Below, in pieces: positions 12,992 through 63,417 of a stretch of DNA of 64,000 nucleotides. The stretch comes from Selaginella tamariscina (Eukaryota; Streptophyta; Lycopodiopsida; Selaginellales; Selaginellaceae). The DNA lies in the NCBI GenBank assembly GCA_003024785.1, contig PUQB01000009.1, positions 1,116,632-1,180,631 on the forward strand, given 5' to 3'. Under the pieces are notes generated by a model that was given only the letters and a program-made list of their open reading frames with translations, was not told the origin of the DNA and ran no database searches. Positions within the stretch are counted from its first letter, which is position 1. Each line of letters opens with the position of its first letter. The translations under genes were made by a program, and so were the position numbers.

Positions 12992-15117
12992 TTAAGCAAT
13001 TTGGAGACAGTCCACAAATTCTTCATATGTAGCATCTTTGCGGTACTGTGGCTGCCAAAACAAGGACCGCAACTTCGAAATAATCTTCAAGAGACCATTA
13101 TCCTCACACTTGTCTAACACCAACTCTACAAATCGTTCATCCGATAGAAAACATTCAGCCTTGTTCGAAGCCATATAACCAGAAGACTTGCAGTTCTTCC
13201 AGTAAACTTGACCTCCCACAGCAATGTAGACGAGCACGTAGAAGAGGCTCTCCAACTCCATAGAAACAGTACGCTTGTGTCCTATTAATACACCGTAGGA
13301 CATGAACAAAAGTGTTCCAGGAGAGCGGTCCTTGTAACGAGTTAAAGCAGATCCCAAGTCGATCAAATATGCCTTGAAAGGGTTCCATGCATAGACAATG
13401 TTGCCATAAGATATGTCTCCGTGGAACACCCCTGCTTTCTGCTGAAGTTCATTGATCGTCTTACCAATCTGGCTTATCACATCCACTATAACTTGCATAC
13501 TCAAGTCAAAGGTCAAAGGTGTAAAACAAGGTGTAATGAGGTAATCCCGCCCCTGAAAAAACCTTTTCCTCATATCCATATGCCAGTAATGGCACGATCC
13601 CAATATCTTCGGGCAGCTCCAACATAATTCGTACCTCCTCCCGCAGATGAGGCCCTATTTTGACAACGACCTCCTGCCCCCCCTTCTTGCCTGGTATACA
13701 ACAACTCCCCTGCTATTGGGGGATCCAGCCTGAGGACGTTTGCTTGCCACCAAACGCCTCAGATCTTTAACCGTTTGACCATCCCCTGTCGTGAATGCCT
13801 GGATGGGAGGAGACGGCACATACCCGTGAAGTGCTTGACGGGAATATAGCAGCTTCAAAAGCATATGTAACCCAAGAGACGTGGGGCTAAAGTCCAGCTT
13901 CAGCCACCCGGTGCGCAAAACATGTTCCATATCCACATCTTCCATATCCATGTCCGACCTGCTGAACCTAATGATCATGATCTTTTCCCCGTCAGCTATA
14001 TACCCATACGCAAAGCGTCGCAGGTACTGGGCATCTAGAATGTCCCTGAGCCTGGAAATCAGCTCTCCAATTGCACTGGCTAGTGCGTCTGCCCGGTCAA
14101 GATTTTCCTTCAGCTCTGCTGGCATTACCATGAGAGAAAAGTCGCGACCGGCAGATAAAGCATCGAAATAAGCCAAGTCTGGACGGACAGCAGCATTAGC
14201 AATGCCACACCTGTGGGTGTCCTCAGCCCTATAGCAAATTCCAGCAGCTTGCAGCAGGCGGCAGACCCTCCCGTGTACCAACTGCACCACCCCTCCCCCT
14301 TTGGAGTGCCATACTTCTTGAAACGACCGTCCATCTCTGCGTTCCTTTGCTCTGCTTCGGCATTTGCTAACCTCGAGTCCTTGAAACTGTAGCCAGAGAG
14401 TTCCTCCTCGTACCGTTTCGCTGCATCTATCTCAGATTCCTCCTCCTTACGTTGAAACCCAATCACGATTTTCTGTAGCAGACTTTCCACGTGGTTCGTC
14501 ACATCGATCTCAAAAGTTTCGAAAATGGAATGGGACTCCACCAATCTTCCCTCCCCTGGAACTCCTTACCGATTGCCGAATAATCTGTCTGGCTGGGAAC
14601 ATCGATTCTGTTCAACTTCGAATCCATGCTCTTCAACCTCGAACCCATCCTCTTCAACTCCAAATCATGGCGCTCTCCACGCGAATTCACGTGGGACAAC
14701 TGCACGCCAATCCCTCCCACCTCCACGCCAATCTCGTCCAGCTTCCGCTTGATTACTGGAATCAAGAATATAGAACAGGAAATTCCGGATCTGGATTTTG
14801 AGAAGCTTACCAGAATTGCTGATGTCCGGCTTTACCACGAAAATATGGACTTGATCGTCTACCCTGGGAGGAATCTCCGCTGCCTTGATCTGTTTCCAGC
14901 AATAGCACCCCATGTGCCGCTTCAATGCGTAGGCGAGGGCGCCTTGCTGAACGCCCAATGCCTCCAACAACAACTCGCCGCTGCCCAATACTGAAGAAGA
15001 TACAAGCAAACGCACAGCGCCATTGAGAATGCTCGCCACGGGGAGCTTAACACCTTCCGCAACTAGAGCTACCACATCATCAGTCTCCTCCGCAGAAAGC
15101 TTGTTATCTTCCACCAC
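12992..15117 (-). CDS. REase-like plus protein-kinase fusion, resembling FunK1/Crinkler-RHS effector architecture
   Basis: Read leftward, four overlapping frame segments look like one gene. The first part (15,117-14,500) is a helical, charged region of unknown type. The next (14,540-14,130) is Lys/Glu-rich and probably coiled coil. The third (14,290-13,655) contains RPDLAYFDAL and, about 25 residues later, AELKENLD; this D...ExK spacing suits a PD-(D/E)xK nuclease-like fold. The last (13,690-12,992) is a protein kinase: VVVKIG near its start, catalytic loop HGDISYGNI, LIDLGSA for the DFG site, and GTLLFMSYGVL afterwards. It ends with TAA. Similar nuclease-kinase pairs are known in Crinkler-RHS proteins of fungi, oomycetes and some plants. 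No in-frame ATG is obvious at the 5' end. Base composition is more GC-rich than the flanks. The kinase call is good; the nuclease call is tentative. Confidence 0.65.
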
Positions 15118-22805: not shown

Positions 22806-23366
22806 ATTCTCTACGGTTAGTAGGACTGCCTAAAGTGTGATTTGTTTTAGGGTTTAGTTAATTCTAAATTCTTGAAGTACTCTATCCCTTTTGGCTAATG
22901 TCTGAATTCTGCGTGGAGAGTTGGTTCTGAGATCTATAATTCTTTAGAGTACATCTACTTCATAAATGGGTGTGGGTTATGGACCTGAATGTTAAAGGTA
23001 ACACTTGGAAGTCAACTTCCAAGTTATATACCAGGTTATTTTACCTTGTGGTCGTCTAAGTTACTTTACTATATACTTCTATAAGACATGACATGTTAGT
23101 TTGTTCTAACTTACAAACTAAGTCTTGTGAGGTGGGTCTTGTGATATCCTAAGTCCATTGAGTTTTGGCTTAGGTCAAGATTCAATATTGGGTCCAACAA
23201 TAGTGTTCAAACAGGGAAAGGCTTATGTTAAATGTGTCTTTGACTTCGGGAGAAGGGGCATATTCAAACATAAGAATGAACGCTACATTTTGACATAAAG
23301 TGTAAAATAAGCTCTCATTATAATGCATGTTTTCAAGAGTGTAACTCTAGAAGCAGACTATGGTGT

Positions 23367-23534
23367 TAAATTTATAATACAACAAAATATCAAATATTAA
23401 CATATGATGAATATGTTAAACAGTTGGTTCGAAGATCCAATGTAATCAATTAAATTTATAATACAACAAAATATCAAATATTAACATATGATGAATATGT
23501 TAAACAGTTGGTTCGAAGATCCAATGTAATCAAT
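23367..23534. repeat. Perfect tandem duplication, 84 bp twice
   Basis: The 84-base unit beginning TAAATTTATAATACAACAAA occurs at 23,367-23,450 and again at 23,451-23,534 with no difference I can see, suggesting a recent slip or an assembly stutter. Confidence 0.95.
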
Positions 23535-24795: not shown

Positions 24796-25662
24796 AATCA
24801 TATAATAGAAAGACTTAAACAAACTTGATTGATAAGACAGTACCTTAGTGTAGTAACTTGAAACATATTTTCAAGTTAGTTGAGAAATGAGGCGTTTCTC
24901 AATACATTGCTTGAGGGGCAATGTGGTACTTTGTGGATGGCTAGGTGTCTACAATGAATAGTGTATCTTAGTTTGACATACTGAACTAGATATCTTATTC
25001 ATGTTTGGGAAAATCTGCCGACTTATGAGATATGACTAAAACATGAAGTTAATATGACACTTCAGTGTTATGATAACATTATGTAAAGATTAATATCTTA
25101 TTAAATCAGTTAGATGAACCAAACACTATTTTTATGATTTCCTCTTAGTCTCTGAACAAGTTCCTCAAAAATACTGTCGTAAAATTAAAGTTCAATTCAT
25201 ATAAACTAAGACCATGTTATTATATAGTCGTAACATTTCGATAAATTGATACGATTGTAAGGTTATATCTGCTAGTATAACAACTAGTTGTAAACTTAGG
25301 ATTTGAACGTTAAAAACGATCATTATCCATTCGAGAGTATCAATATCAAAATTATAACTGTTTATGGAATAAGGATTAGTTTAAAAAAGATGTTTGTTAG
25401 AAAACACTAATTGCTCGAATTAGTGAAAATGTTATACTTTGGAATAATGTTGAGAAACATTTACGTAATCAATTTGAGAGTTGTAAATAAATATAATGTT
25501 ACAACGGCATGTAGTATTACAAGTTCATGGACACTCTTATCATAGAAACTAAGTTTTTAAATTATTATTTTGAGCTTAGTGAGATAAAGAGTTAGTAATT
25601 GAGTACAATGAGAGTGGCAATTAAGAGCTATGTATTTAAAGGTTGTCGATTGAGGCACTAGA

Positions 25663-25689
25663 ATGCAAGTTGTAACTAAAATGGGCATG
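25663..25689 (+). repeat. Left terminal inverted repeat
   Basis: ATGCAAGTTGTAACTAAAAT plus GGGCATG; preceded by TAGA at 25,659-25,662. It matches the reverse complement of 40,173-40,199 at 25 of 27 positions. Confidence 0.8.
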
Positions 25690-26160
25690 GCTATAGTCCC
25701 ATTTCCTAATAATTAGCAATTTTAGCTATTTAATTAGCATTTTCTAATATTAAAGGAATATTCTTTAGAATATATGTTTGAAAAGAGAATATTCTTTAGA
25801 ATATTCTATTTTGTATTCTACCCTTTAATAAATTATAGCATTCATTGAACAAAAATTAATAACATTATAAAAGTAGAATGTATTAAATTATATAATATAT
25901 TGCCTAATATAACAATTAAGGAAGAGCATAAGAGGTACATTATATAAATATTGATGTTGTTATTAAAATATTAATATTTAAATATAACATTATTAATTAA
26001 AAATTTGTAGTAGTAATAAATATATATAAAATCCTATAATAATATAGTCAATCTTCCATATCATTTTTTAAATTTATATAGTTAAGTATACAATTTGGTA
26101 CTATTATTAAAGAGTTTATAATAATTATGAATATTAAATATATGATATTTTATAATTTTG
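25690..26160. other. AT-rich left subterminal region
   Basis: About 470 bp with several GAATATTC/GGAATATTC words (25,757-25,805) like those near the right end (39,998-40,030). These may be subterminal binding sites. No coding signal. Confidence 0.5.
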
Positions 26161-26168
26161 TAATTGCT

Positions 26169-29100
26169 TTAAGCTTCAGAAAACATACATTCCCTTGCAG
26201 TTTTGTTAATCGTGACTTTATCAACGCTTCTTGACATCCACCCATATCGAATGGATTTAACATTTATAAAACATGCTGGGTCTTTTTGATTGGGAGACCA
26301 TGTTTTCTCTAGGCATCCATTATATCTTTCGCTCTCCTTCTCGTGTCGCCTTTTTTGTGGTTTGAACCATGCAACCTTAACAATACTATTTTTTGTGATT
26401 ACTTCAGGTGTGTCGATAATTTGACCCATCCAAATAGGCTGATTATATGACGCATCTGGAGTAATGAGAACCATCATTAGTTTTTGAAGATCCTTGCAGC
26501 AATCAAAGTATGCTTTAGGTTTTTGGTTCCTTTGTCCAACAAAGTGTGGGGTTTGCACTTCCACATCACTACTGGCTTCTATGTCGTCTATGCTCAGTGA
26601 TGTCATTTCAATCTCCTCTCGCCACCTTGTTTTAGGCCAGAAAGGGTGTTGCAATTCTGTACTTGTGACAGTAGGCCCTTCCAACTCTCGAACAACAGTC
26701 TCCCAATAGTTGACCACATGCTTATATAGTTCTGAGTAACCAGTTGCCTTATCAGAATTCTTTGGCATCGATTTTTGAACCCATGCCACATATTTTTTGA
26801 TGCCATCAATAATAACCTCTTGTTCCTTGAGCTGGGCACTCAATGGAATAGGGTCTGGTTGTCCTTCTGGGAGAAGTGGCTTTCCATCCTCTCCACTTTT
26901 GAAGAGCATTAAGCCCTCTTTCGGTAACCACTCCTGCTCTGATGGCCGTAACTTGTACTGCATAATAGGTATACCATCTCGTATGGAGAAAAAGAATTGT
27001 AGCGGCACAAGGTGACCAACTAAAGAATCACTCCCTTCTTTTATATACTCCTTGAGAAATTTTTTGAAGTCTGGCACCTCAGTCACAAGCAAAGCACAAC
27101 TTTTTTTGGAGATGCAATTTTCAAAAAGATTCATCATATGCGGTAAGGTAAGTGCACTTGTCCTTTTTGTAGAGTTGGAGACCTTGCTGAAGAACGCATC
27201 AATATCTTCATGAGTGTGACCAACCATAAGGAAACTGAGCGTGATTGTTTCAAACACACCTTTGGCAACAAGCATTGACAAGTATGCTAGCACATATCTA
27301 GAAAATAAAAGTAAGTATGAGCTTGAGAAACCCTTAAGTAAAATGATTTACCTATTTTTGTTCTCGCCTGCACAATTATCCATCTGTAAAAGCAAATGAC
27401 GAGGAAGCTTATTTGATGTTGAGGACACATGTACACTATTTGAGCTAGATCCCTCCACTGAACCTGAACTCTCAACAGGGCCATCTGTTTTTTGTGCAGG
27501 TTGCTGACAATGCCTCTCATATTCCCAAGTAGCCTCAAGTGCAGACGTGTTCATGAGAGCATTATGTAAAGGTTGAAGGTGTTGTTTCTTCACTTTGAGA
27601 TCACTGATAGGACTTGTCTGTGAGTGGGCTTCAAGGTTTCTGAAACACATGGCTAACGACCCAATAGTGAAATTGGAGTCGCTAGACCAATGTGGAAGTG
27701 AAAAGTGTCCATATGACTCACAACCGTGTCCATGTGTTAGCACACCTGTTAAAGAAATCGGAAGTTTCATGACATTTCCAAGGCACTTTGGTGTTGCAAA
27801 GAGCTTTGGAATGCTGGTCTTTGAATGATCCATCTTGTCATGGATCAAGCACAGGTACTCTGATGGGCGTGACACAGAAAGCATGCGGTGTGCATAGTAC
27901 TGAGACCGCAAGTTTGTTGTGCAATCATGTGGGCCTCCATCTTCCTTTGAATGGTAGTGATCTCCACCAAGGTTTTTGCACAAGCCTCTGCAGCCTTCAA
28001 TGATGTACAAGTGTCACACTTAGAAAAGCTAGAGTGTTTTGCAATCTCCACATCCTTAAAATGAGTATTCCATATGTTGTTGAAGGTACCAGTGCAGATT
28101 GCTTGGAGCCCCATCAAACTGAGGCACTTGTTCACATGTTCACACAGTTTCAATTGAGTGTAGATTGAAGGTAAAACCTTGAGATTTTCCCTGACCCCTG
28201 CATTTGTGGTTCGGCATTTGTGAGGCATCCTGTCTGCATTTGCTTCCACAAAAGCCTTGAGTATCTCTATGGCTGCCATGATGTGAGAGCGGGTTTTGAC
28301 CAAGCCAGTGTTCCCATGAACTGAGGTTCGCGCTCCATCTAGCCACTCATCCCTCCGACGGTAGAACGTGGTCTTTGGGATCCCGTATATACTGTACCAA
28401 GCTTTGAAGCAGATGGCCACCTTATTAAATACCATGGATGTACTCTGATAACCTGTGTCCGAGGCCATTCCATCAATACACCCAGTTAGTGCAGCATATA
28501 CAAACTCATGCCTTTGCTTTTGGGTGAGCATACGAAAGACATGTCTACATTGGGTAATTTCATTCCGGTCTGCCATCTGACAACACTTCTTCTTGCAACA
28601 GTCAATCGTGGAAATGCTCGTAACACTTTCGGAAGATGTAGGATCCATCTTTACCCTCTTGCTGAAACTTGCAGGGGAAGATCTACAACCCATGAATCGC
28701 CTTTTTCTTACAATAGGACCAATGCAAGGAACCTCTTCAAATATGAGTTGTTCTTCCGGGTTGTTATTATTGAAATCCAACCCAGAATATGTTGAACCAT
28801 CTTGCCGTCTTAATTCAGATGTTCGCCACCTCACGAGGGATCCAGGATACAATGTGCCATTAGGTGAAACCTCTGTCACAACTACACCCACGAAGTCGGA
28901 CCCTAGTTTCTCTTCTGACACTGCTTCCATTGGATTTATAGCTGTGATGATGCCTCTTCCGACTTCAATCTCACGAAGAAAGAGAATCACCTCATCCATT
29001 ACAGCAGGCAAGCCATCATCTGGTAAACTCGTGCTACTATTTGTTTGTGACTCTGCATATTTGTGTCAGCCTTGACTTCATCCAAATTCCACAATACAGG

Positions 29101-29286
29101 AGAACCCTCCTCAAATTCCATTCCCAGAACCTCAACATGCTTGTAAATGGTGTTCACCCATACGTACACACAAGATCCTTGGGAAATATTGTGACATGAT
29201 GCATTATTATCTCGAACTTCCACAGTTCCAGTGCCAACTATCTCGTTGTTCCGAAGAAGACATACTTTATCTCCAGTATTAAACAT
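26169..29286 (-). CDS. DUF7869-type transposase-like protein
   Basis: A leftward gene starting near ATG 29,286 (MFNTGDKVCLLRNNE). The first part is a small beta-rich region. A Cys cluster CCKKKCCQM follows (about 28,585), then the helical segment with YGIPKTTFYRRRDEWLDGAR. The core has LCLIHDKMDHSKTSIPKLFA (about 27,830), LLLQMDNCAGENKNR (about 27,370) and SFLMVGHTHEDIDAFFSKVS (about 27,220). These three Asp-containing blocks are the hallmark of DUF7869 proteins and look like the acidic positions of an RNase-H/DDE fold. A short intron (about 27,301-27,352) with GTAAAT and TTCTAG borders separates NKNR from YVLAYLSML. Frame jumps at about 29,000 and 27,850 may be base errors. Ends at 26,169. 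Function as a transposase is inferred, not shown. Confidence 0.75.
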
Positions 29287-29440
29287 ATTGTCCTGCACAT
29301 AAATAATTGTATTATTTATGATATCTGTTTATGCAATATTTTTAAGAAATCTGAATTACGGTTACTTAATAATATGCATATGCAATAATACATAATTATG
29401 TTTAGAGATAATATCTCATGTTTGATTAATACAACTGATG

Positions 29441-30175
29441 GGCGGGATTAATCCCGCCCACGAATCCCTCCGACGAGGAACGGTCGGCGGGATTAATCCC
29501 GCCGCCGACTCAACCCCTTCGGAGAGAGTCGGCGGGATTAATCCCGCCTTGGACTCCCTCCGACAAGGAAGAGCCGGCGGGATTAATCCCGCCGCCTCTT
29601 CCTCCTCGGGGGAGTCCGGCGGGATTAATCCCGCCGACTCTCTCCGACGAGGAAGGGAGTCCGGCGGGATTAATCCCGCCGACTCATCCTCGCCGGAGAG
29701 AGTCGGCGGGATTAATCCCGCCGGACTCCCTTCTCGTCGGAGGAAGAGGCGGCGGGATTAATCCCGCCGGCTCTTCCTTGTCGGAGGGAGTCCAAGGCGG
29801 GATTAATCCCGCCCACAATTCTTACGACGGGGAATGGGTGGCGGGATTAAACCCGCACATAACTCTCTCCAAAACTATGATTTCAAAGAGATCTCGGGAT
29901 AAATCCTGTCCCCAAATCTTTAAAACAGGGAAGTGGTGGCGAGATTAATCCCGCCACCCCTTCCCTGCCTCCTAAAATGGTTGGCGGGATTAATCCCGCC
30001 GACAACTCTTTCTAATAAATTCTGGTAACTCTTCATCAGTTGAGAAGGTTATCGACGGGATTAATCCCGCCACTCTTTTTCAGTGGCGGAGAAGCATTGC
30101 CCGGGAGATGGTGGCGGGATTAATCCCGCCACTTCTTCAAAGAGGCGAAAAAGAAATGGCCGGATTAATCCCGCC
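29441..30175. repeat. Palindrome array 1 (GGCGGGATTAATCCCGCC, about 15 copies)
   Basis: The 18-base sequence is identical to its own reverse complement. Exact copies start at 29,441, 29,486, 29,531, 29,576, 29,618, 29,663, 29,705, 29,751, 29,796, 29,983 and 30,113; altered copies start at about 29,840, 29,938, 30,054 and 30,158. The first nine are spaced 42-46 bases, mostly 45. Spacers of 24-28 bases are related (CTCCCTCCGACGAGGAAG-like) and often begin GACTC and end GAGTC, so they too form inverted repeats. Copies decay to the right. The array begins about 155 bases upstream of the DUF7869-type start. The open frame through it (repeating GGINPA) follows from the palindrome and spacing. Confidence 0.95.
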
Positions 30176-30179
30176 GCCC

Positions 30180-31770
30180 CGGTTAACCTAGAATATTAAG
30201 TTAAAAGGATATTTAAACGTGATAAATCCCTAACGGAATATATTATAATCCTAATGCATTTCTAAACCCCTAAATTGTAATTTTAAGAGAGAATGTAAGA
30301 GAGTGAATCTTAATAAGTATTTTTAAATTTGTTTATAATACTTACTTGTAAACAGCACTGAAGGCGCCGTGCTTTCCTATAAAGAATAGCACCCAATTTA
30401 ATCTCGCTCCTGAGATGATCACTATGAAGAAAAAAGAAGATCTAAAGAGTGAAAAATACAGAAATGAAGAAACCCTTGCCGGAGAAAGAACCAGATCTGA
30501 ATTTGAGTGGGAAATTAAATGCATTTTCAAATTTACATGTCAGACCGACAATACATATGTCAGAAATTCAAATTTTTTAAAAAGAACAGAAAATAAAATT
30601 TAAGATGAGTTGACACAAATATCCGACACTCTGACATATATACTCTCCAGTTCCAATGAGTATTTTAAAATTGCATTTAATGTTATTCAAGTGATTCAAG
30701 CTGTTTAATATTACGAAATTTTAGACTATATTCTACATTCTTAGTATTCAAGTATATTTATATTATATATATATATAAATATATACTTATACAATAAATA
30801 AATTGATATATTATTATGTATCATTTAAAATATATTCATAGTCTGTTTATTATTATTATTTTCTTAATTACTCGAGTATTTAGTTTTCATTTCCTAGTAT
30901 CAATGGGATATTCTTTAATATTTTATTAATATTTGAAGAATATTCTAATATTAAACCTGATTATCATAATTAAATTAGTCTTGTTCTTAATTATTGCAGT
31001 AATTATTCTACATTTGTATATATTAATGGGATTTTCTCAATTAATTTGTTATTATTTCAAGAATATTCATGTGTTAAACCTTATTATCAATATTAAATTA
31101 ATACACACTATGAACATATTTTAAATTATACATAATAATACATCATTTTATCTAATATATAGTCATATATAGTTTTAATAATATATATATTAATATCATT
31201 TCCTTAATTACTTGAGTAATTAATCTTCTTTATATTAATGGGATATTCTTTATTATTTTCTTATTATTCCAAGAATATTCCAATATTAAACATGATTATG
31301 ATAATTAATTTAGTTAATTATTTGAGTACTTAATTTACATTTGTATATATTAATGGGATTTTCTCAATTAATTTCTTATTATTTCAAGAATATTTCAATG
31401 TTAAACCTTTTTATCAATATTAAATTAATATATATTATTAAAACTATATATGGCTATATATTAGATAAAATCATATATTATTATGTATAATTTAAAATAT
31501 GTTCCTAGTGTGTTTATTAATTTATTTTCTTAATTATTCGATGTTTGTTTTGCACACATATATAAACACAATCATAAATTTACACACGCATTACAAGAAC
31601 TTACAAAAACACATATGCACACACATGCACAACCCTAAACCAAACTGAAGAAATAGGTTGCTTCTTTATTGAAAACATCATGTTCAACGCATGTATGATA
31701 TATGTACTCAATCTGTGTGACTGTATGTAACACATTGAATTTACATGTGTAATATTTATATTAAGCTTGT
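30180..31770. other. AT-rich spacer between palindrome arrays, left part
   Basis: AT-rich DNA with diverged repeats of a block containing TTAATGGGATATTCTTTA / AAGAATATTC (about 30,900, 31,030, 31,230 and 31,350). No gene is recognisable. Confidence 0.6.
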
Positions 31771-31777
31771 TGGGAGC

Positions 31778-31807
31778 AAACCCTAAACCCTAAACCCTAA
31801 ACCCTAA
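31778..31807. repeat. Interstitial telomere-type repeat (CCCTAAA)4
   Basis: Four head-to-tail CCCTAAA units, the plant telomere repeat, inside the mobile element rather than at a chromosome end. Confidence 0.95.
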
Positions 31808-31945
31808 TATGTAACACAATGAATTTACTCATGTAATATGTATGTATGTCTGTGTGTATACACGTGTGCATGTATATATGTGTACTCTGTATGTATATAT
31901 GTGTACTCTGTTATGTATATGTTAATATGTGTCTCTCTTCTCTCA

Positions 31946-32260
31946 ACATACACACCATGCATGATCCATGTTAATATGTACTGTCTCTCTTCTCTCAAAC
32001 ATACACACCATGCATGATCTATAATATGTACTCGGTCTCTCTAATATTATGTACTAATATGTATGTATGTCTGTGTGTATAATACACACCATGCATGATC
32101 CATAATATGTACTGTCTCTCTTCTCTCATATACTATGTATGTATATCTGTGTATAATATGTGTAAGTATATATGTGTACTAATATATGCAATGTGTACAA
32201 AAATAATTTTTCAACACTCTCTCTTCTCTCATACATACACACCATGCATGATCCATCCTA
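31946..32260. repeat. Short repeats with TCTCTCTTCTCTC and CACCATGCATGATCCAT
   Basis: Four imperfect copies of a unit combining TCTCTCTTCTCTCA, ACATACACACCATGCATGAT and TATGTATGTCTGTG words lie between the two telomere-type tracts. Confidence 0.7.
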
Positions 32261-32269
32261 AATCCAAAA

Positions 32270-32293
32270 CCCTAAACCCTAAACCCTAAACCC
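32270..32293. repeat. Second interstitial telomere-type repeat (CCCTAAA)3
   Basis: Three complete CCCTAAA units plus CCC, about 460 bases after the first tract and in the same orientation. Confidence 0.95.
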
Positions 32294-32669
32294 ATGTAAT
32301 ATGTGTGTATACACGTGTGTATGTATATATTATGTGTATTAATATATGCAATGTGTATGTATGTATTGATACACATGAAACTTTAACACTCTCATGGACA
32401 CACACATGTTAAATCCCTGCATGATTTATATTTTTGAGGTGTATGTGATACACCCACGCACACGCACGCGCTAATAATATAATGAAAGAATATTCGTTTA
32501 GGGCGAATCTATATTTTATTCTTTTTAGGGTTTAAGTATATTCTCAGAAGGAATATTCTATTAGGGTTGATATATATTTAATTCCTTTAGGGTTTAGGTA
32601 TATTCTTAGGGTTTCAAGAGTGGCAGCTGTGAAATCGGCGGCGGCGGCTGTGCACACAGGTGAGATGTG

Positions 32670-32936
32670 TGTGTGTGTGTGTGTGTGTGTATGTATATAT
32701 GTATAAGTGTGCGTATAATTTTATTTATTAGTTTTATCTCTCGCACACACACGCACACTCCTGTTATGTATATGTGTGTGTGGGTGTGTGTTTGTTTATC
32801 TGTATGATTTTATTTGTTTCGCTCACACACGCATACACACGATATACATATACACATATATATATATACCTATATACATATATACATACATATATTATGT
32901 GTACCAGTATCTGTAAATTTTTTTTATTGATCTTGC

Positions 32937-33003
<67 letters not shown>

Positions 33004-33830
33004 TATTATGTGTACCAGTATCTGTAAATTTTTTTTATTGATCTATCTCTCCCACACACACGCGCACTGCTTTACACACACACACACACACACACCACAC
33101 CACACACACACATATATTATAATATTATATATATAATCAATGCATATTAACAAATAGTATACAACACTAGTTTATATATATGCTTATATATTCATATGGG
33201 TTATATATCTATATACACACATATATATATGTGTGTGTTTCTGTATAATTTTATTTATTTATTAGTTTTATCTCTCGCACACACACGCACACTCCTGTGT
33301 ATGTATATGTGTGTGTGTGTGTTTGTTTATCTGTATGATTTTATTTGTTTCGCTCACACACACATACACCACAATATACATTACACATATATATACCTAT
33401 ATACATATATACATACATACAACACTAGTTTATATATATGCTTATATATTCACAGACTCTCTCTCTTCTCTAAGATTATATATCTATATACACACATATA
33501 TATGTGTGTGTTTATCTGTATAATTTTATTTATTTATTAGTTTTATCTTTTGCACACACACGCACACTCCTGTGTATATATATATGTGTGTGTGTGTGTT
33601 TGTTTATCTGTATGATTTTATTTGTTTCGCTCACATGCATACACACGATATACATATACACACATTTATATACCTATGTACACACATATATTAGGTTACC
33701 AGTACTGTATAATTTTATTTATTTATCTATCTCTTGCACACACACGTACACTCCTATACATACATACATATACATATATATATTATATATACACACACAC
33801 ATATATATGTGTGTGTGTTTTTATCTTGCT
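32670..33830. repeat. CA/TG microsatellite-rich minisatellite, about three long units
   Basis: A block with GTATAATTTTATTTATTAG, CTCGCACACACACGCACACT and TGTTTATCTGTATGATTTTA recurs at about 32,700-32,880, 33,240-33,410 and 33,520-33,680, separated by pure CA, TA and TG tracts (for example CA at 32,941-32,980). It ends directly before palindrome array 2. All open frames here are repeat artefacts. Confidence 0.85.
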
Positions 33831-33842
33831 AAGCCCTCGAGC

Positions 33843-35051
33843 GGCGGGATTAATCCCGCCGCTATAGGTTTATAGCCTCGGCGGCGGATTAATCCCGCCG
33901 CTATATGGTTGGGGCCATGGCGGCGGGATTAATCCCGCCGCCGAGGCCCTTCAGGCATGGTGAGCGGCAGGATTAATCCCGCCGCTCATCCATGCCCTGC
34001 GCAGAATGCGGCGGGATTTATCTCGCCGGCAATGGCCTGTGTGAAGGTTCTAATGAGCGGGATTAATCCCGCCGGATTCCGCGCAGGGCATTTACAGGGA
34101 ATGGGCGGCGGGATTAATCCCGCCGCCGAGGCCTCACGCAGGCCATGGGATTAATCCCACGCTCATGCCCTTCGCGGAGGGCGGCGGGATTAATCCCGCC
34201 GTTCATGTCCTGCGTGAATTCTGGGCGGCGGGATTAATCCCGCCCCCACCCATCCCTGTTCAAAAATGCCGCAGCCAATATATATGTGTGAGCGCATGAT
34301 TTACGAGAGGGCGGCGGGATTAGCCTCCGAACCTTCATTACCCGGTGGCGAGATTAATCTCGAACCTTCATTACCCCATTGGTATGTTGAATCAATCCCG
34401 ACTAACTCTGTCTGAGACGGAGAAGGTTTACAAAATACCAATGGAGGGAACTGAGAAGGGTGGTGGGATTAATTTCACCATCCCTTACATGGTGGGCGGG
34501 ATTAATCCCGCCGCGTACGCATGCCCTGCGCGGAATCGGGCGGGAATCCCGCCGCCATTGGCCTGCCTGAAGTGCCTAGGCGGCGGGATTAATCCCGCCC
34601 GATTCCGCGCAGGGAATTGGCGTCCGGCGGGATTAATCCCGCCGCATAGGGACCGAGTGAAGGCCCTGGGCGGCGGGATTAATCCCGCCGAGTCTTCAAT
34701 GCCTGTTGGAGAATGAATCTCCGCCACCCTTCCCTTTTTCTCCATTGGTGAGTGGACCAATCCCAAACGTTTCTGTCTGAGACGTAGAAGGTTTACAACA
34801 TACCAATGGAGGACTGGGAAGGGTGGCGAATTCATTTAACCATCCCTTACATGGTGGGCGAGATTAATCCCGCCTCCTTTCTGGAGTCACTGAAGGGGTG
34901 TGAGAAATAAATCCTGCCCAGTTCTCTCTGAGACCGAGAAGGGTGGCAAGATTAATTCCGCACTCCCGTTCAAGGCCTCCAGAAAGGTGGCGAGATTAAT
35001 CCCGCCCACTCTTTCAGGAGGCATTGAAGGGGTGGCGAGATTAATCCCGCC
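33843..35051. repeat. Palindrome array 2 (same 18-bp palindrome, about 18 copies)
   Basis: Exact copies of GGCGGGATTAATCCCGCC start at 33,843, 33,922, 34,107, 34,183, 34,227, 34,495, 34,582, 34,626 and 34,672. Variants start at about 33,882, 33,966, 34,010 (GGCGGGATTTATCTCGCC), 34,056, 34,146, 34,347, 34,857, 34,945, 34,989 and 35,034. Spacing is less regular than in array 1. Spacers share their own words (CATGCCCTGCGCAGAAT, and its reverse-complement-like ATTCCGCGCAGGGCAT), so spacers are also inverted repeats. A longer sub-repeat (GTCTGAGACGKAGAAGGTTT plus ACCAATGGAGG) occurs at 34,409 and 34,775. The array ends about 300 bases before the first visible exon of the ParB-like gene. Confidence 0.95.
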
Positions 35052-35167
35052 GCACCTTCCATGTGAATATATATGTGTATTAGTATATATAAGTTGCATA
35101 TCTCATTTTATTTACTTTTATCATCTTATCATAATATTTCGAGTAAAAGCTAGGAATCTATGTAAAA

Positions 35168-35250
35168 CTGTCCAGAGCTCACATTTGTGGTGGTTCTAAA
35201 ACGAAATGTTATCTTTCTTTTGCACTAACACAAATGTGAGCTTCGGACAG
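35168..35250 (+). ncRNA. Hairpin with 22-base arms upstream of the ParB-like gene
   Basis: CTGTCCAGAGCTCACATTTG(TG) at 35,168-35,189 pairs with (CA)CAAATGTGAGCTTCGGACAG at 35,229-35,250, with 20 of 22 bases matching and a 39-base loop. The 22-base arms resemble a microRNA precursor, but an attenuator or a small relic is equally possible. Confidence 0.4.
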
Positions 35251-35355
35251 TTAATTACGTCTACTTCTCTCTGTGTATTATTTTTGTATATTCGGGTTTA
35301 TACAAGTGTGTGTGCGTTTTTATATAATTTATATTTATAGTGTATTATTTTGCAG

Positions 35356-38300
35356 AAGGACGATTTGATCAAACAAGGAGATCGAGTCATTAGTATGGAG
35401 TCGTCGTCAAATTCTGGGTAAGAATTAAAATAAAATCTGTTATACTCGGATACTTGAACTAATCATTTTTGTATTCAGATGTGGAATTGAGGTGACATTA
35501 AAGACAAGAGCAGGAGAAGAGATGGGCAGGGGGATTCTGGAATCAACTTGGCCATATTTTAAGATAAATGGGAAGCGCATTGGAGCAACCATGGTTGCTG
35601 TCAAATTAACCTCTGTCACATCTCATGGACAAGCAAAACAATGGAAAGTAGATTCGCTAGTCAAGCACCCGAAAGCAGGCTGCGAACCCAGATTGGACGA
35701 TGCTCGACAGATATGCCTTGTTCCATCCAATGTCACGTTCTCGGATCCAGAGGTCGTCAGTTACAACATTAATCTCGGGTGGTTTTGTCGACTTGTGGAT
35801 AATGACGTTCACGTGTTCTCTAATGATGTTGACCTTGGAGTTCTTCTTCAACTCAACGAAAGCCCATCTATGGAGGGGATCCATCTGGATGTCTACTTCG
35901 AAGATCTTCAGACTCATCGAGTAGGTGTATTGTCAGGAGATATTGCTTCACAATACAGAAAATCAGCAAGTGGAGCAATCTTCCCTCTTCACATTGAAGA
36001 AGAACACAGCGACATCATAAGGAGATTGAGAGGTGGCTCGGTCTCAGGTTCTCTACAGATCACGTTCAATTTGCTTAGGAAGCTTCGGGAGCTGGAAGAG
36101 TGTGCCGAGAACACTAGAACAGCTGCAGTCGGGGATCACACATGTTGATTCGGATCGCAAAAGAAAATCATCAATCGTTTTGTCAGCTGCACCTGTGGCA
36201 TCTCATGCTGCAATAAGTCACAAGGAAATGATGTTGGATGATAAGATTTATCCTTGTAGGGTTAAATATTGCAGCGTCAACCCAAACTTCAATTACAGGC
36301 CACTCAACCAGGAACGTGTAGCTGAGCTCATGGAGAAGATGAAGGACGACAATTCTTATACCGTTCCACATAATGCGGTTTTGTGTCCATACTATGAAAG
36401 AAGGAAGGGTGCTGACAAAGTCTGGATCACAACACCAGAACAACTCATGAAGATTCAGACGGAGAATAAAAGATCTATCAAGTACTACATCATTAGTGGC
36501 CAGCACACAATAACGGCAGCCCAACGACTTCTCGATGAACACAACAAAGGAACGATGGCAACAAAACTTTCCGAGCATACCCGTGAGAAGCTGACAAAAA
36601 GATCGGCGTTTTTAGCTAAGCCGAATCTCACAATCGAGCAGTACCATAAGTTATCGGCGGAATGGGACGCTGCCGACACCAACCACTACAACAGCAAAAT
36701 ATGGGAGAAGTTTAAACACACGCGAGCCGTGTGGGAATCTCTTCAGCGACCACAAAGAGCTACCGCAGGGAATACACAATCTGCGGAATACCGGGTAAGC
36801 AAATTGTTTGGGCGGGATTTATCTCGCCGGTATATTAATCTGTCTTTTTCCTCAGAGAGTTGAAGAAATTGCAGCAGTTGATTTTGCCCAGGTGGGCGGG
36901 AAGGAAAATCATTTCTGATGATGTTGATTTCTTGCCCCGAAGATAGGATCTTTGCCAAATGGTTGGGGATTATGGAATCCTTTTCAAAAGGAACACTGAA
37001 GAAGAAGCAGACAAGTGAAGGGGAGCCCTCAGAAAAGTCTGCAAAGAAACCCAGTAAGACGCCGAAGGCTAAGTCTGTTCAATCTACAAAGGATGTAGAC
37101 AACGATTTCAAGCTCACATGGTTGAAGCCTTTAAATGGAACAACGATGGAGGAGATGGAAGTCTTGGCTGATTTGGTGATCGATGGCAAACTACAAATTA
37201 ATAACAGCAGCCCAACCTCTCCTTTTCATCTCAAGGCAATGGAGTTGAAGACGGTCAGGCATTTCAAGGAGTGGTTGGGAATACACTGCCACAAACTGGG
37301 TTGGACCTCGACTTCAACATATGAAGAGGTTAGCAAATATTTGCATGTGACGAACGATGATATGCTTGTCGAATGGGTGAACCAATCGGAAGATCTAGGC
37401 AAGAATCTATTGCACGCCAACGCCAAAAAGGAGAACATTGGGATGACGCCTTCTCTTATGGCAGTCCTTCAGCAGCGGAGAACCGAATTGAACCTTATAA
37501 AGGAGGATGCTACGAATCACGACAAGCCCTACAGATGTTTGTTGTTAGATTCGGAGACTTTATGGGGTAACATCACTGCTTGTAGGAAACCGTTTCAATT
37601 GTTCGTGATGGATCGGCGGGTGTCAAAAAATCTTTCGACAGATAGGGCACTAGAGGATCTGGTGGAGAAACTTAGCCGTGCAAGCATATACATAGAAGGT
37701 ATTTATTATTGAATTCATGCTTGCGCTCTTCACTGATACCTACTTTTTCAGGTATTTATTTCTTGATTGCTCATGTCACCGATACTTCGCCAAGAAGAAT
37801 AGACATCGTTGGACAGGATTTTATATGAACGATGCTAATCCCAAGTGCATTGATACTGTTGTTCACTTGGTTGTTAGGAATGCGCCAAACAATTTCAAGC
37901 TTCCAAATGACTGGCCAGGCATCTGTTTGCACTCCAACGGCCCTGAACCTCCATCCGATACACCGATAGGTATGAGTGACGTATTCGGCAATGTACGTTA
38001 TCCAAACATTACAAGTCAAGCGGCACGGAGCATCGTCAACTTGATCAGGGGTCCTCACAGTGATGCGTGGGTTTTTGACTACTGCACTAGGGGGTCCGTC
38101 TTGAAGGAGTGTTACCTTCGGCATACATGTGTGTTTGCCGTTGAGAAGGATAAGACCATGGTTGAGGACCTGAACAAGTGGATAGATTGGGTCTCAACTG
38201 AGTACCCCAACGATCCATAAAGGCGTATTTGAGAAAGTTCCCTCCAGATAAGTGCGATAGCTCTGAAGGTGAATCTGGTTCAATCTCGGAGTCTGAGAAC

Positions 38301-38708
38301 GAACATCAATCAGATATTAGACCGGAAGTTATCTCGAGGAGTACAGAACATTCGCACACTCCAGGACCCATGGAAACATCAATAGAAGATGCAGAAGATC
38401 TTGAACCATCTCACAAGCGGCTTAGACCTTCTTCGCCTCATTCAGAAGGTAATAGCGAAGAAGAATTGATAATGAATTGATAGAGTGATGAATAGTTGTA
38501 AATGAGTGTAACATAAGGCATTTTTGTATATTTCTTTTATATTTGTACAGAAAATAAATTCTCAAGGATTAATGAAGCTTTTAGTTCAAACATGGGTCAC
38601 ACATTAACAAGGTAAATAATATACCTTGATAATTTTAAGGTCAGCTAATTATCATTTTGCAGATGTAATGAAATAATTGAGAACATGGATTTTCAGCATT
38701 GCCATGAG
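35356..38708 (+). CDS. ParB-like plus divergent methyltransferase-like protein
   Basis: Exons: 35,356-35,418, 35,478-36,794, 36,856-37,698, 37,752-38,447, 38,551-38,611 and 38,663-38,708, with good GT/AG borders. The 5' start is not certain. The N-terminal 220 residues have no family I can name. Next comes a ParB/sulfiredoxin-like block: SIKYYIISGQHTITAAQRLL near 36,480-36,535, matching the SGQHR..A.. motif with R replaced by T. A Lys-rich linker follows. The C-terminal part has DAWVFDYCTRGSVLKECYLR (about 38,065-38,125) followed by CVFAVEKD, resembling the SAM-binding motif I and acidic strand 2 of DNA methylases. I see no canonical (D/N/S)PP(Y/W), so activity is doubtful. A Ser/Glu-rich acidic tail ends it. 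Frame jumps at about 36,120, 36,900 and 38,215 may be base errors. ParB-methylase pairs are common in phages and plasmids. Confidence 0.5.
36811..36828. repeat. Single palindrome inside a 61-bp intron
   Basis: GGCGGGATTTATCTCGCC, identical to the array 2 variant at 34,010-34,027, lies within the intron 36,795-36,855 (GTAAGC...CCTCAG) of the ParB-like gene. It is the only palindrome copy outside the arrays in this window. Confidence 0.9.
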
Positions 38709-38752
38709 GTAAGAGAGGGGTTTGGCGACAATTTCTTGTGCCACATGTCAGA

Positions 38753-39721
38753 ATGACAGAGTTCATGCAGGAAATGGATAATAATGCAGCTCAAAACATC
38801 GTTACCATGGGGGCCACTTCAGTTTTTGCATCATCATTTTTATTGGCTTCAGTTCCGAAATCAATTTCTTCAGCGCATGCAATATCTGAATCTTGTAAGG
38901 ATGATGTACAATTAAATGATGAAGGGATAGGCAACGAATAGTGGCAACGGATAAATGTGAAAGGGAGCAAACAAGTGATTTGCAAAGTATTCAAGAGGCA
39001 ACGCTATCTCATGTTACTCATGGCCATATTGTGTTGTTGGATGTCAATGGTGTTCTGCTTCATCGACAAAGGCCCGAGGATAGAAAAACAGAAATCAAAC
39101 AAGGAGATTTCATTCCTTGTCATGGTAAATTTCGATATGATATTATTTTTCGTCCAGGGTTGGATCGTCTCTTTCAAAAGCTTAAGGAGATGGGTGCGCT
39201 TGTGGGGATTTGGTCATGCATGCAGATTCATAACTTAACACCGCTGTTGAGTTTACTTAAGAAACATTGTAGTGTTGCAGAAGAGGTGATTCGTAAAGAT
39301 TGGATTTTTGACCAGCGAATGTGTCATAAACCTCTCGAATTTCACAATATAAGAAAGGAAAGCAAGCCATACTTCTTCAAGAATGAAAGAATAATTGGGA
39401 CTCATGGGGAGATCAGTCGCTTAAGGATAACGAAGAATGCACATATCTTAGTAGTAGACGACTCTCCTCAGAAGGCTATGCTCAACCAAAACATTGCTTG
39501 TATTCATCCAATCACTTTCGATCCATATTCTGATCGATATCATGGATGAGCTAGTGAACTACTTGGATACGTGCCTCAGAAAGAAGAATCTCGAAAATTT
39601 TTGTGAGCAGTATCCACCGTATCATACATTTCCTGAAGCTTTTCTTTCTCGTGATATTGAATTTTATAAAATGAAGGATAGCAACCGGGCGCTTTATAAT
39701 ATTATTCTTAAGGAACTTTAG
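38753..39721 (+). CDS. HAD/FCP1-like (NIF domain) phosphatase-like protein
   Basis: The frame starts at ATG 38,753 (MTEFMQEMDNN) and, after a probable one-base shift near 38,940, gives the catalytic strand HIVLLDVNGVLLHR (about 39,025). FCP1/SCP phosphatases have DxDGT/L here; the second Asp is Asn, a change also seen in some plant FCP1-like proteins, so activity is uncertain. Further motifs fit the fold: FRPGLDRLFQKLKEMG, VGIWSCMQ (the motif II Ser/Thr region) and ILVVDDSPQKAM (the terminal Asp pair). Another small shift occurs near 39,548. It ends with TAG at 39,719-39,721. It follows the ParB-like gene by under 50 bases with no terminator in sight and may be the 3' part of the same gene. 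Length and motifs suit a single HAD domain. Confidence 0.7.
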
Positions 39722-39764
39722 TTTTTATGCCTGCAGACTTATCACATCTTATGTATTAACAAGG

Positions 39765-39911
39765 ATGGCAACTCCCAATTGCATTCGTGAGAGTGTTAAG
39801 TGGTGGCAACAACATCAAGATATTGACCAAAATGATTTGATTAATCCGGAGAGTGATGATTTAGACAAAATGAAAAGATTTCTTTGTATGATAGAAAGAA
39901 AGTATTTATAA
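39765..39911 (+). CDS. Small open frame, 48 residues, unknown
   Basis: Starts MATPNCIRESVKWWQQHQDI and is rich in Asp and Lys (DLINPESDDLDKMKR), with protein-like composition. It could be a last exon of the HAD-like gene (a CAG acceptor lies just upstream at about 39,736) or a separate small gene near the element's right end. Confidence 0.3.
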   Translation: MATPNCIRESVKWWQQHQDIDQNDLINPESDDLDKMKRFLCMIERKYL

Positions 39912-40172
39912 AAAATTAACATGTTGATAAGAAAATGATTTCATTTGTAATTATGTTTGATAGTATTTCTTCATTATTGTAAACTATTTTTAGAATAATA
40001 TGAATATTCTAAGATATTTTAGGAATATTCCTTACTAAGTAAGGTTATTGAAGGATTAATTAATTAATTAATTAATATTTAAGGCTTAATTACATATTAA
40101 TTAAATGATTAATTAATAATTAAAACTTAAGTATTAATTAGTAATTTATTTTATATTCCCATTTTCACGTAT
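39912..40172. other. AT-rich right subterminal region
   Basis: AT-rich, with GAATATTC and GGAATATTCC words (about 39,998-40,030) echoing the left subterminal region, and a run of TTAA repeats. No coding signal. Confidence 0.5.
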
Positions 40173-40199
40173 CATGCCCACTTTAGTTACAACGTGCAT
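40173..40199 (-). repeat. Right terminal inverted repeat
   Basis: CATGCCCACTTTAGTTACAA plus CGTGCAT; followed by TAGA at 40,200-40,203. Reverse complement of the left end with two mismatches. Confidence 0.8.
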
Positions 40200-40203
40200 T
40201 AGA

Positions 40204-61042: not shown

Positions 61043-61937
61043 TCAACACTCCAAGGCCTGACCCATCACGGTTGAAGCCCTGCTGCGTGTGTTTGATCCC
61101 CTAACCTTGGAAACTTGATAAGAACCAAATCTCTCACTTGGTATTGAGGTGGCGTTCGATGTCGTTGATTGTAAGTCCGACGCTGATACTCTTGTGCTCG
61201 AGCTAACTGTTCTCCACCTTGAGCATACAATAGAGGAAGGACTTGGTTCAAATGCTCTAACCACATACGCCCATCCATATACCGTGCCTCGTGGGTTCAC
61301 GACCATACAAAGCTTTGAATGGGGAAATCCCTGTTGACTTGTGAGGGGCTGAAACATAAGCAAATTGGAGATATGGAAGCCACATATCCCAATCCGTATG
61401 GTCAGAGCGCACATACTTGGCAAGCATGACTTTGAAAGTTCTATTCAACCGCTCCACCAAACCATCAGTCTCAGGATGATAAGCTGAGGCAAAAGATTGT
61501 CGGATCTGCAACCGTCGCATCAACAAAGCTACTGCTTCTGCTGCTGGGCTTGGTCCTTGATCCGATAAAATTCGTTCGGGGCAACCATGCCTTAGCACCA
61601 CTTGAGCTAGTAAGAATTTGATGATGAAAGTTGCTGTAGCATCTGGCAAAGCACACACTTGTACCCACTGAGTCAAGTAATCAAAGCACACAATGATGTA
61701 TCGATTACCGAATTGCGACACAGGGAATGGTCCCATGATGTCATATGCTACCAGCTCAAAGGGGCGAGAAACTTGAATTGGCTCCATGGTTGCTGCAGGA
61801 GGAAGTGTGGACACGTTATGCCTTTGACACTCCGGACATGTATGAATGTACTCATGTAGGTCTTGCCGCAATCGGGGCCAATACAAGTGCTGTCGAATCC
61901 TCTCAAGGCATCGTTGGAATCCCATGTGTCCGGACAT
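61043..61937 (-). CDS. Gypsy integrase and C-terminal domain
   Basis: Begins with an HHCC zinc-binding end (HMGFQRCLERI ... CPECQRHN), then the catalytic core: YDIMGPFPVS (first Asp), ILSDQGPSPAAE (second Asp; the usual SDQGxxF is altered) and DGLVERLNRTFKVML (Glu). It continues WDMWLPYLQFAYVSAPHKST and SPFKALYGREP. A frame shift near 61,270 leads to the tail with QVRDLVLIKFPRLGD (about 61,110). Integrase inserts the cDNA into the host genome. The length and motifs look complete. Confidence 0.88.
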
Positions 61938-62178
61938 CGGGTTGTCATGAAAGAATTACAATCAGAAGTTAATGTAAACTGGTGGTGCCACCACACGACA
62001 CTCAGAACTGTCTCCAACAAAGACAAGCAAGTCATCCATCAGTCTGAAAGATCGTGCATACATGCGAAAGTTAAGATCCTCGCAAGGTACCTCACTACTC
62101 AAGACCTCCCGCAACCTCTTGATCCATGGCTCCATCTTCTAAGCCTCCACAATGTCTTCCCGCCTTGGAAGTACGCGA

Positions 62179-63402
62179 TCAGGGAGGGCATTTGGCAACA
62201 ATGCCACAGGGGCTGCCACTACCACAGGAGCTCGGATAACGCATCCACATCCGCCATGCTAGCCCTGGGCGATGAACAACCCGAAAATGATACCCTTGCA
62301 AAATTAACGCCCAACGTGCAAGTCGTCCTGTCACATTCCTTCTCTTCATGATTGAGTTGATGGCAGCATGATCAGTTTCCAACAATGTGTTGGAGCCATA
62401 TAGATATGCATGGAACTTTTGAAAGGCCCATACAGCTGCCAAACATTCCTTGTCCGTGGTGGAATAATTTTTCTTTACATCAGTAAGGCTCCGACTTGCA
62501 TAAGCGATTGGGTACCGCTGACCATTGGGAGTCTCCTGCAACAGATCGGCCCCCAACCCAACATCTGAAGCATCGGTCCGAAGAATAAAAAATTTGGCAA
62601 AGTCCGGATACCGCAACAAAGGTGGGGATCCTAGTAATGCCTTAACATCCTCGAACGCCTTCTGACACTTCTTGGACCACAAGAATTGAGCTCCTTGTTT
62701 TAACAATCCTCGCAATGGGGCTGTCAGATCTGAGAACTGCGGAACAAACCTCGCTAGGTATGTTGCCTTTCCCAAGAAGTGCTGCAACTCCACCACTAAC
62801 TCAGGAGCAGGAAATTCTCGTACAGCTAGGGTCTTCTCAAGATCCGGTTTCACACCCTCTGCTGTGATGATGAATCCTAAGTATTTCAATGAGGTACATC
62901 CGAACTTGCACTTCTGCTCTTTTAACTTTAGCCTGTATTGCACCAATCGCTGCAAGACCCGCTCTAACTGCTGAAGGTGCTCCTCCCACGTAGCAGAGTG
63001 AATCAGAAGGTCATCGATGTACGCACGTGCAAATTCTTCAAAGCCCTCCAATAGCTCGTCCATCATCCGCTGGGCCCCAACCAACCCAAATGGCATGACC
63101 GTAAACTCGTACAAGCCGGATGGTGTTCGAAATGCTGTCTTTGCTGCATCTTCAGGAGCCATAGGGATCTGCCAATAGCCGGAAGTTATGTCAAGGATAG
63201 TGAAGTACCGGCTATTCCCCAATGCATCGACCAAATCATCCACCCTTGGTAGTGGATATGAATCTGGAACAGAAACATCATTCAATGGCCTGAAGTCAGT
63301 AGTGAAACGTGTAGTCCCATCTGGCTTCGGAACTAGGTGTGGTTCTGCTGCCCATGGACTTTGGGACTTACGTATCACCTTCAACTCTAGCATCTCCCTC
63401 AC
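62179..63402 (-). CDS. Gypsy reverse transcriptase and RNase H
   Basis: One open frame of about 400 residues. RT motifs: LVPKPDGTTRFTTDFRPLND, LDITSGYWQIPM, FRTPSGLYEFTVMPFGL and the catalytic box AYIDDLLIHS. These are followed by LKYLGFIITAEGV, and then RNase H with ILRTDASDVGLGADLLQE, YSTTDKECLAAVWAFQKFHA and LLETDHAAINSI. The end should read HRPG...ADALS; a one-base loss at about 62,250 moves it to the next frame, where MADVDALS is visible. The short gap in the FGL block (the usual NAPATFQ is missing) suggests a small deletion at about 63,070. Confidence 0.92.
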   Translation of the reverse strand: MREMLELKVIRKSQSPWAAEPHLVPKPDGTTRFTTDFRPLNDVSVPDSYPLPRVDDLVDALGNSRYFTILDITSGYWQIPMAPEDAAKTAFRTPSGLYEFTVMPFGLVGAQRMMDELLEGFEEFARAYIDDLLIHSATWEEHLQQLERVLQRLVQYRLKLKEQKCKFGCTSLKYLGFIITAEGVKPDLEKTLAVREFPAPELVVELQHFLGKATYLARFVPQFSDLTAPLRGLLKQGAQFLWSKKCQKAFEDVKALLGSPPLLRYPDFAKFFILRTDASDVGLGADLLQETPNGQRYPIAYASRSLTDVKKNYSTTDKECLAAVWAFQKFHAYLYGSNTLLETDHAAINSIMKRRNVTGRLARWALILQGYHFRVVHRPGLAWRMWMRYPSSCGSGSPCGIVAKCPP

Positions 63403-63417
63403 ACAACGATTCAGGAT

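Follow-up and report, generated by a model that had tools for sequence, protein, structure and literature searches.

A large DNA transposon of Selaginella tamariscina with palindrome arrays upstream of two divergent genes and a possible VANC-like accessory protein

In the genome of Selaginella tamariscina (assembly GCA_003024785.1) we analysed a stretch of 64,000 nucleotides of contig PUQB01000009.1 (positions 1,116,632 to 1,180,631, forward strand), called here the window, which encloses at positions 25663 to 40199 an element with a left and a right gene directed outward and one array of the 18-bp palindrome GGCGGGATTAATCCCGCC upstream of each. This element is a cut-and-paste DNA transposon of the autonomous type, about 14 kb long and recently amplified, which moves as one unit bounded by 27-bp terminal inverted repeats (TIRs) and makes 4-bp target-site duplications. 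With moderate confidence we propose that it is possibly a Sola-like transposon whose accessory protein, encoded by the right gene, would act on the promoter-proximal arrays in a VANC-like anti-silencing or auto-activation role. A first-pass annotation of the window had suggested a mobile element carrying its own genes and its own arrays of sites, and this is borne out by further copies, by the 4-bp duplications, by a nested insertion with its empty site and by selection on the accessory gene.

The inverted ends of the window copy are identical at 25 of 27 bases, as had been annotated, and no further sequence within 8 substitutions of the TIR exists in the 64-kb window; the TAGA expected directly outside both ends was located there as well. 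In the whole assembly (300.7 Mb, 1391 contigs) the family TIR pattern gave 4496 matches (2310 + 2186) at up to 3 mismatches and the exact palindrome 27,128 sites, both strands being counted and the figure being the number of sites; the reversed-string controls gave 0 in both cases. Copies were recovered from sixteen 10-kb stretches of contig C1, chosen for holding or bordering palindromes, and six more were found, with about 92-99% identity to the window copy over the gene blocks. Three of these are imperfect: E011r, in which 2500 N stand where array 2 and the beginning of the right gene would be, E015r, one end of which was missed by the TIR scan, and E023r, which has one mutated end. E021, a pair of stretches, is a degenerate relative, about 77-89% identical where parts of the genes and ends align. 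A near-copy of E015r is located 18.6 kb away; at C1:~899-912.6k and ~918-931.2k (L015-L018) two copies about 18.6 kb apart share their array layout and the flank at one end, and this pair is probably a segmental duplication. A sample taken from the TIRs instead (the first 30 ends listed, in 3-kb stretches too short to reach the element's own arrays) showed 27 of 30 ends extending about 1.3-1.5 kb into a full-type element at 93-99.7% identity; the other three were L053, with an internal deletion, L033, which is the end of E021, and L032, a short derivative. The listed copies lie dispersed on C1 and on many further contigs. With 14.6 exact palindromes per sampled copy (102 in 7 copies), the 27,128 sites correspond to about 1,860 copy equivalents, or about 26 Mb and 9% of the assembly if all were full length, a rough upper-range figure given that the seven copies, the window copy aside, were picked through their palindromes.

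Exact 4-bp direct repeats flank 11 of 21 end pairs, compared with 5 of 420 mismatched pairs. These duplications are TAGA (window), ATGT, ATAA, ATTA, GTAG, AAGA, TAGA, TATC, CGTT, CTAT and TGGT; the remaining 10 pairs have no exact 4-bp repeat. The set took in 10 of 12 further pairs noted from the TIR listing, C68 and C80 being left out. One copy (C2:121721-135520) is nested inside another member of the family, between CATATTA on one side and ATTATTAAGC on the other, and its site is uninterrupted, with a single ATTA, in 7 of the 8 other copies searched; the eighth, E021, gave no match to the empty site. From this empty site it follows that the ends are AT...AT and that the duplication is of 4 bp. 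Inverted ends in many copies, a target-site duplication and an empty site, which characterise a class II TIR transposon, are all present here. The annotation had proposed looking for other full copies, empty sites and 4-bp duplications, and all three were found, while the contrary outcome, TIRs occurring only here or genes lacking these ends, was absent in the material examined, in which end-less gene copies were not sought systematically.

The short derivative L032 (C1:1443135-1443379) is a 245-bp miniature inverted-repeat transposable element in which only the two ends are left, about 131 bp from the left and about 114 bp from the right; TTAA borders it on each side, and it contains no palindromes. 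The genome was searched with a 39-bp pattern that spans its internal junction, giving 97 matches (41 + 56) at up to 3 mismatches (control 0), of which L032 alone had its sequence read; at one other match, on C89, the distance to a listed TIR equals that in L032. Since a palindrome-less derivative possesses its own duplication and its junction recurs, the arrays and the genes are dispensable in cis for transposition, and the two ends alone suffice in cis for movement.

The window copy is organised as follows, the start codons of both genes having been read by eye:

25659..25662, no strand: left target-site duplication TAGA, directly outside the left end
25663..25689, + strand: left TIR ATGCAAGTTGTAACTAAAATGGGCATG
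26169..27297, - strand: left gene exon 2, second part of DUF7869 with the GHTHEDID motif (Pfam PF25273, E 1e-26)
27352..29286, - strand: left gene exon 1, N-terminal domains and first part of DUF7869, with frame jumps in the window copy
29441..30175, no strand: array 1, 15 sites of GGCGGGATTAATCCCGCC at up to 3 mismatches, mostly about 45 bp apart
30176..33842, no strand: central spacer, AT-rich, with interstitial AAACCCT repeats and dinucleotide runs
33843..35051, no strand: array 2, 16 sites of GGCGGGATTAATCCCGCC at up to 3 mismatches
35395..35417, + strand: right gene exon 1, read from the sequence
35479..36794, + strand: right gene exon 2, N-terminal domain and then the ParB-like part, with a frame jump near 36.05k in the window copy
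36811..36828, + strand: palindrome variant GGCGGGATTTATCTCGCC in the second intron of the right gene, absent from the first-pass annotation
36856..37698, + strand: right gene exon 3, MT1 region, with a frame jump near 36.9k in the window copy
37752..38480, + strand: right gene exon 4, a stretch resembling methylase motif I by eye and then a fast-changing tail, with frame jumps in the window copy
38753..39912 (approximate span), + strand: NIF/HAD-type gene (PF03031, E 2.7e-10, in the open reading frame 38923-39549)
40173..40199, - strand: right TIR
40200..40203, no strand: right target-site duplication TAGA, directly outside the right end

The left gene, with an intron at 27298-27351 read from the sequence, has two Pfam matches to DUF7869 (E 1e-26 and 1.2e-13), in agreement with the annotation, and by eye the motifs IHDKMD, QMDNCAGENKN and GHTHEDID. 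Genome-wide, 4249 first-look candidates for DUF7869 were obtained (150 scored), and none in 14 control genomes. Judging from its sequence, the product is probably a transposase, plausibly of the DDD type; it also has a weak, sub-threshold match to Transposase_23 (EnSpm; E 0.2). Both genes of the window copy have frame jumps, and other copies are open at several of those places: exon 1 of the left gene is open over 645 codons in E023r, and L078 is open through the jump near 36.05k. The left genes of the window copy, E013 and E023r are about 0.1% apart in substitutions and yet differ by frame-breaking indels, which are possibly assembly errors.

The right gene had been annotated as ParB/methylase-like, a label that is based on motifs seen by eye and finds no support in profiles. 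No significant match was obtained in Pfam, PHROGs or PDB sequences, nor in NCBIfam for two pieces, and the stray rows (E 0.058-1.5) carried no fitting name. In particular, there was no profile match and no PDB sequence match to a ParB N-terminal domain, and no profile match to a DNA N6/N4 methyltransferase. Where ParB has the motif GERRxRA this protein reads GQHTITA, and at the DPPY-like methyltransferase position it reads, by eye, DSET. A ParB-methylase enzyme was rejected, profile support being absent. Scans of viral contigs with a DUF7869 piece and with the ParB-like piece detected no relatives, and a phage tblastn with the ParB-like piece gave no match. The N-terminal domain of the right protein is similar to one in the left protein, as a two-sequence BLASTP with composition correction off showed (E 6.5e-7). 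The third gene does encode a NIF/HAD domain, as had been annotated, and has an open frame of 356 amino acids in E011r; its DVNG motif departs from DxDx(T/V) in having no second aspartate.

Purifying selection acts on the transposase and on the core of the right gene. The ratio of nonsynonymous to synonymous substitution rates (dN/dS) was determined between two lineages of copies (3 x 4 copies, which are not independent, with 9 or 12 pairs used), and was 0.31 and 0.45 for the transposase exons; in the right gene it was 0.37 for the N-terminal domain, 0.20 for the ParB-like part, 0.13 for MT1 and 0.30 for MT2. Frame-shifted controls, run on four of the eight segments, gave 2.07 and 1.44 for the ParB-like part, 1.54 and 1.68 for MT1, and 0.86 and 0.85 for left exon 1. 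Because of its low dN/dS compared with these controls, the core of the right gene is a maintained part of the element and not a passenger. Moreover, a 180-amino-acid ParB-like stretch yielded 4848 first-look candidates; of the 150 places scored, 128, including the window copy, have it with 100% identity, which indicates recent amplification.

The annotated layout of two divergent genes, each preceded by an array of the same palindrome, agrees with our coordinates. The window contains 20 exact sites and 32 at up to 3 mismatches, of which 15 lie in array 1, 16 in array 2 and 1 in the right-gene intron; 100 shuffles gave 0. Array 1 starts 155 bp from the ATG of the left gene, array 2 ends 344 bp from that of the right gene, and the modal spacing of the sites is 44-45 bp. 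The intronic site occupies the same place in E013 and E023r; in other copies single outlying sites are seen about 1.6-1.8 kb from the array, which fits the same position. The information content of 233 monomers, taken from seven copies without E021, is 1.3-2.0 bits at the palindrome positions and does not exceed about 0.5 elsewhere; between array 1 and three copies of the other lineage the palindromes differ by 4-7% and the spacers by 22-23%. Compensatory changes within the palindrome showed no clear excess over independence, with at most 5 compensated among 266 sites at any of the nine pairs and 0.05-4.3 double changes expected per pair. Each site holds two CpGs, and the observed/expected CpG ratio is high in the arrays (1.12 and 0.97), but the array spacers have 0.67 and 0.57 and the left gene has 0.41; in view of these values we draw no inference on methylation from it. 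Related arrays were seen in L075 (C819:56900-66400) and L021 (C1:2056807-2059136), mixing GTGGCGGGATTAATCCCGCCAC with the symmetric variant GTGGCCGGATTAATCCGGCCAC at 29/44-bp spacing; nothing matching the element proteins was found in the 9.5-kb C819 stretch. Genome-wide there are 44 exact sites of the variant GGCCGGATTAATCCGGCC, and C660 and C585 are close relatives carrying the same palindrome.

The location of the arrays near the promoters, the intronic site, the conserved accessory protein, the movement without arrays and the scattered copies together point to a function in the control of expression or chromatin, and not in transposition chemistry or segregation. In the mechanism that we propose, the right-gene protein, or a complex of both element proteins, would bind the palindromes near both promoters and the one within the right-gene intron, and the bound protein would keep the genes of the element expressed and its chromatin open, by anti-silencing or auto-activation, as VANC does for VANDAL. 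A bolder version, which we put forward only tentatively and consider somewhat doubtful, is that a VANC-like anti-silencing function evolved independently from a ParB/methylase-related scaffold: the protein would load at the arrays and the intron site, perhaps reading the CpG methylation of the palindrome, and spread over the whole 14-kb element, enabling it to reach roughly two thousand copy equivalents.

Several observations weigh against an anti-silencing or auto-activating accessory protein. No profile or usable fold reveals a DNA-binding domain in the right protein (the AlphaFold model of the ParB-like piece alone has a mean predicted local distance difference test score of 37.8), and a host factor could be the binder of the palindrome. 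The tail of the right gene (window ~38215-38480) has a dN/dS of 2.4, with about 1.1 synonymous and 9.6 nonsynonymous changes per pair, and is fast-changing or not constrained; the HAD gene, at 0.71, has too few changes for a verdict on selection, and one frame-shifted control of MT2 was weak (0.46 against 0.30 in frame; 1.76 for the other shift). Choosing the monomers at up to 4 mismatches to the palindrome already gives the palindrome positions a higher score, and in the array alignment each palindrome is paired with a palindrome, so that they look more conserved than they are. The window copy and L077 align easily, and between them the contrast is small (1/180 in palindromes and 7/410 in spacers), and palindromes are not more conserved than spacers between the window copy and L076 (13/281 and 25/557) or between L076 and L077 (9/175 and 7/411). 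Finally, we came across no family that combined another palindrome with a right gene that could be read.

Two other explanations keep the arrays in the control of expression. An element protein might sit on the promoter arrays and shut down both genes, in the style of an autoregulatory repressor that limits copy number, an explanation close to the self-silencing module of the annotation. The 155 and 344 bp that separate the arrays from the start codons, and the further site in the right gene's own intron, would suit such a repressor, but the 4249 DUF7869 and 4848 right-gene first-look candidates (150 of each scored) and the 128 places with an identical right-gene domain fit escape better; self-silencing is therefore possible, yet we regard it as unlikely and as less probable than self-activation or anti-silencing. 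We find it similarly unlikely that a host transcription factor uses the arrays as enhancers and that the right gene has another task, such as helping transposition. This would accord with a right protein in which no DNA-binding domain is recognised; it is harder to reconcile with a variant site within the right-gene intron, with 27,128 exact sites of 18 bp, and with the length of the palindrome, which exceeds that usual for the site of a plant factor.

The two remaining explanations place the arrays outside expression control. Dense repeated sites within a DNA transposon might, like the subterminal repeats of Spm, be required for transposition as binding sites of the transposase, but here the arrays lie 3.8 and 5.1 kb from the ends, and the 245-bp derivative, free of palindromes, has a target duplication and a junction that recurs 97 times. 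Subterminal transposase sites were rejected on these grounds, and this role is very improbable. Hardly credible is a centromere- or parS-like segregation module, which the annotation had considered in view of the palindromic arrays and the stretch that resembles ParB by eye: the listed copies are dispersed over C1 and many contigs and no ParB profile match exists, so that this claim was discarded.

Outside the element, the window includes a chlorophyll a/b-binding gene, which together with the AAACCCT repeats points to a land plant, and, about 2.1 kb to the left of the element, a perfect two-copy 84-bp tandem repeat (23366-23534). Two open reading frames at 12992-14431 (- strand) match the fungal protein kinase family PF17667, though the genome is that of a plant (E 7.4e-13 and 8.5e-4, the second below the curated cut-off), and at 61257-63417 (- strand) there are integrase, reverse transcriptase and RNase H fragments of a long-terminal-repeat-type retroelement.

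No published description of such an element was found in the literature searched (DUF7869, palindrome, ParB-domain + transposon, moss + Sola), which beyond the papers cited was compared by title or start of the abstract. The element shares with ParB/parS systems palindromic sites arranged in arrays and differs in its dispersed copies, in lacking a ParB profile match and in giving no Pfam match to ParA among ten element pieces. In En/Spm (CACTA) elements TnpA is a helper protein that acts on repeated sites, and the sub-threshold EnSpm match of the left protein is a further likeness; the array sites here are, however, not subterminal. CACTA/EnSpm transposons are recognised by CACTA ends and a 3-bp duplication, and membership was rejected since the ends here are ATGCA and the duplication is of 4 bp. 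Ginger, described with TG...CA ends and a Gypsy-like integrase in the part of PMC10741241 consulted, was also rejected, the ends being AT...AT according to the empty site and the element pieces giving no integrase match in Pfam. The same part of that paper describes Sola with a 4-bp duplication, a DDD-type transposase, some members above 15 kb and an occurrence in the moss Physcomitrella patens. Compared by this description only, our element is alike in its 4-bp duplication, probable DDD transposase and large size and possibly fits Sola, while promoter palindrome arrays and an accessory gene of this kind are not mentioned in that part of PMC10741241.

The closest worked-out precedent is the VANDAL/VANC system of Arabidopsis. 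The VANDAL transposase belongs to the Mutator type, and the element described here has instead a DUF7869 transposase, short TIRs and a 4-bp duplication. In the consulted parts of PMC5735166 and PMC10398659, VANC proteins are described as binding short motifs, often tandem repeats in noncoding regions, and removing silencing marks, the motif of VANC21 being of 9 bp, and the former paper assigns to VANC the domains DUF1985/DUF287. These domains were not found by Pfam in the pieces of the right protein, and the palindrome here is of 18 bp. Both systems are DNA transposons with a transposase and an accessory gene, and both have a short motif repeated in tandem in noncoding regions. If our reading is true, sequence-specific anti-silencing encoded by a transposon would have arisen more than once, outside the VANDAL elements of Arabidopsis and with an 18-bp palindrome as its target, and this family would offer a new DNA-binding specificity together with a natural test case for the escape of a large DNA transposon from silencing in plants.

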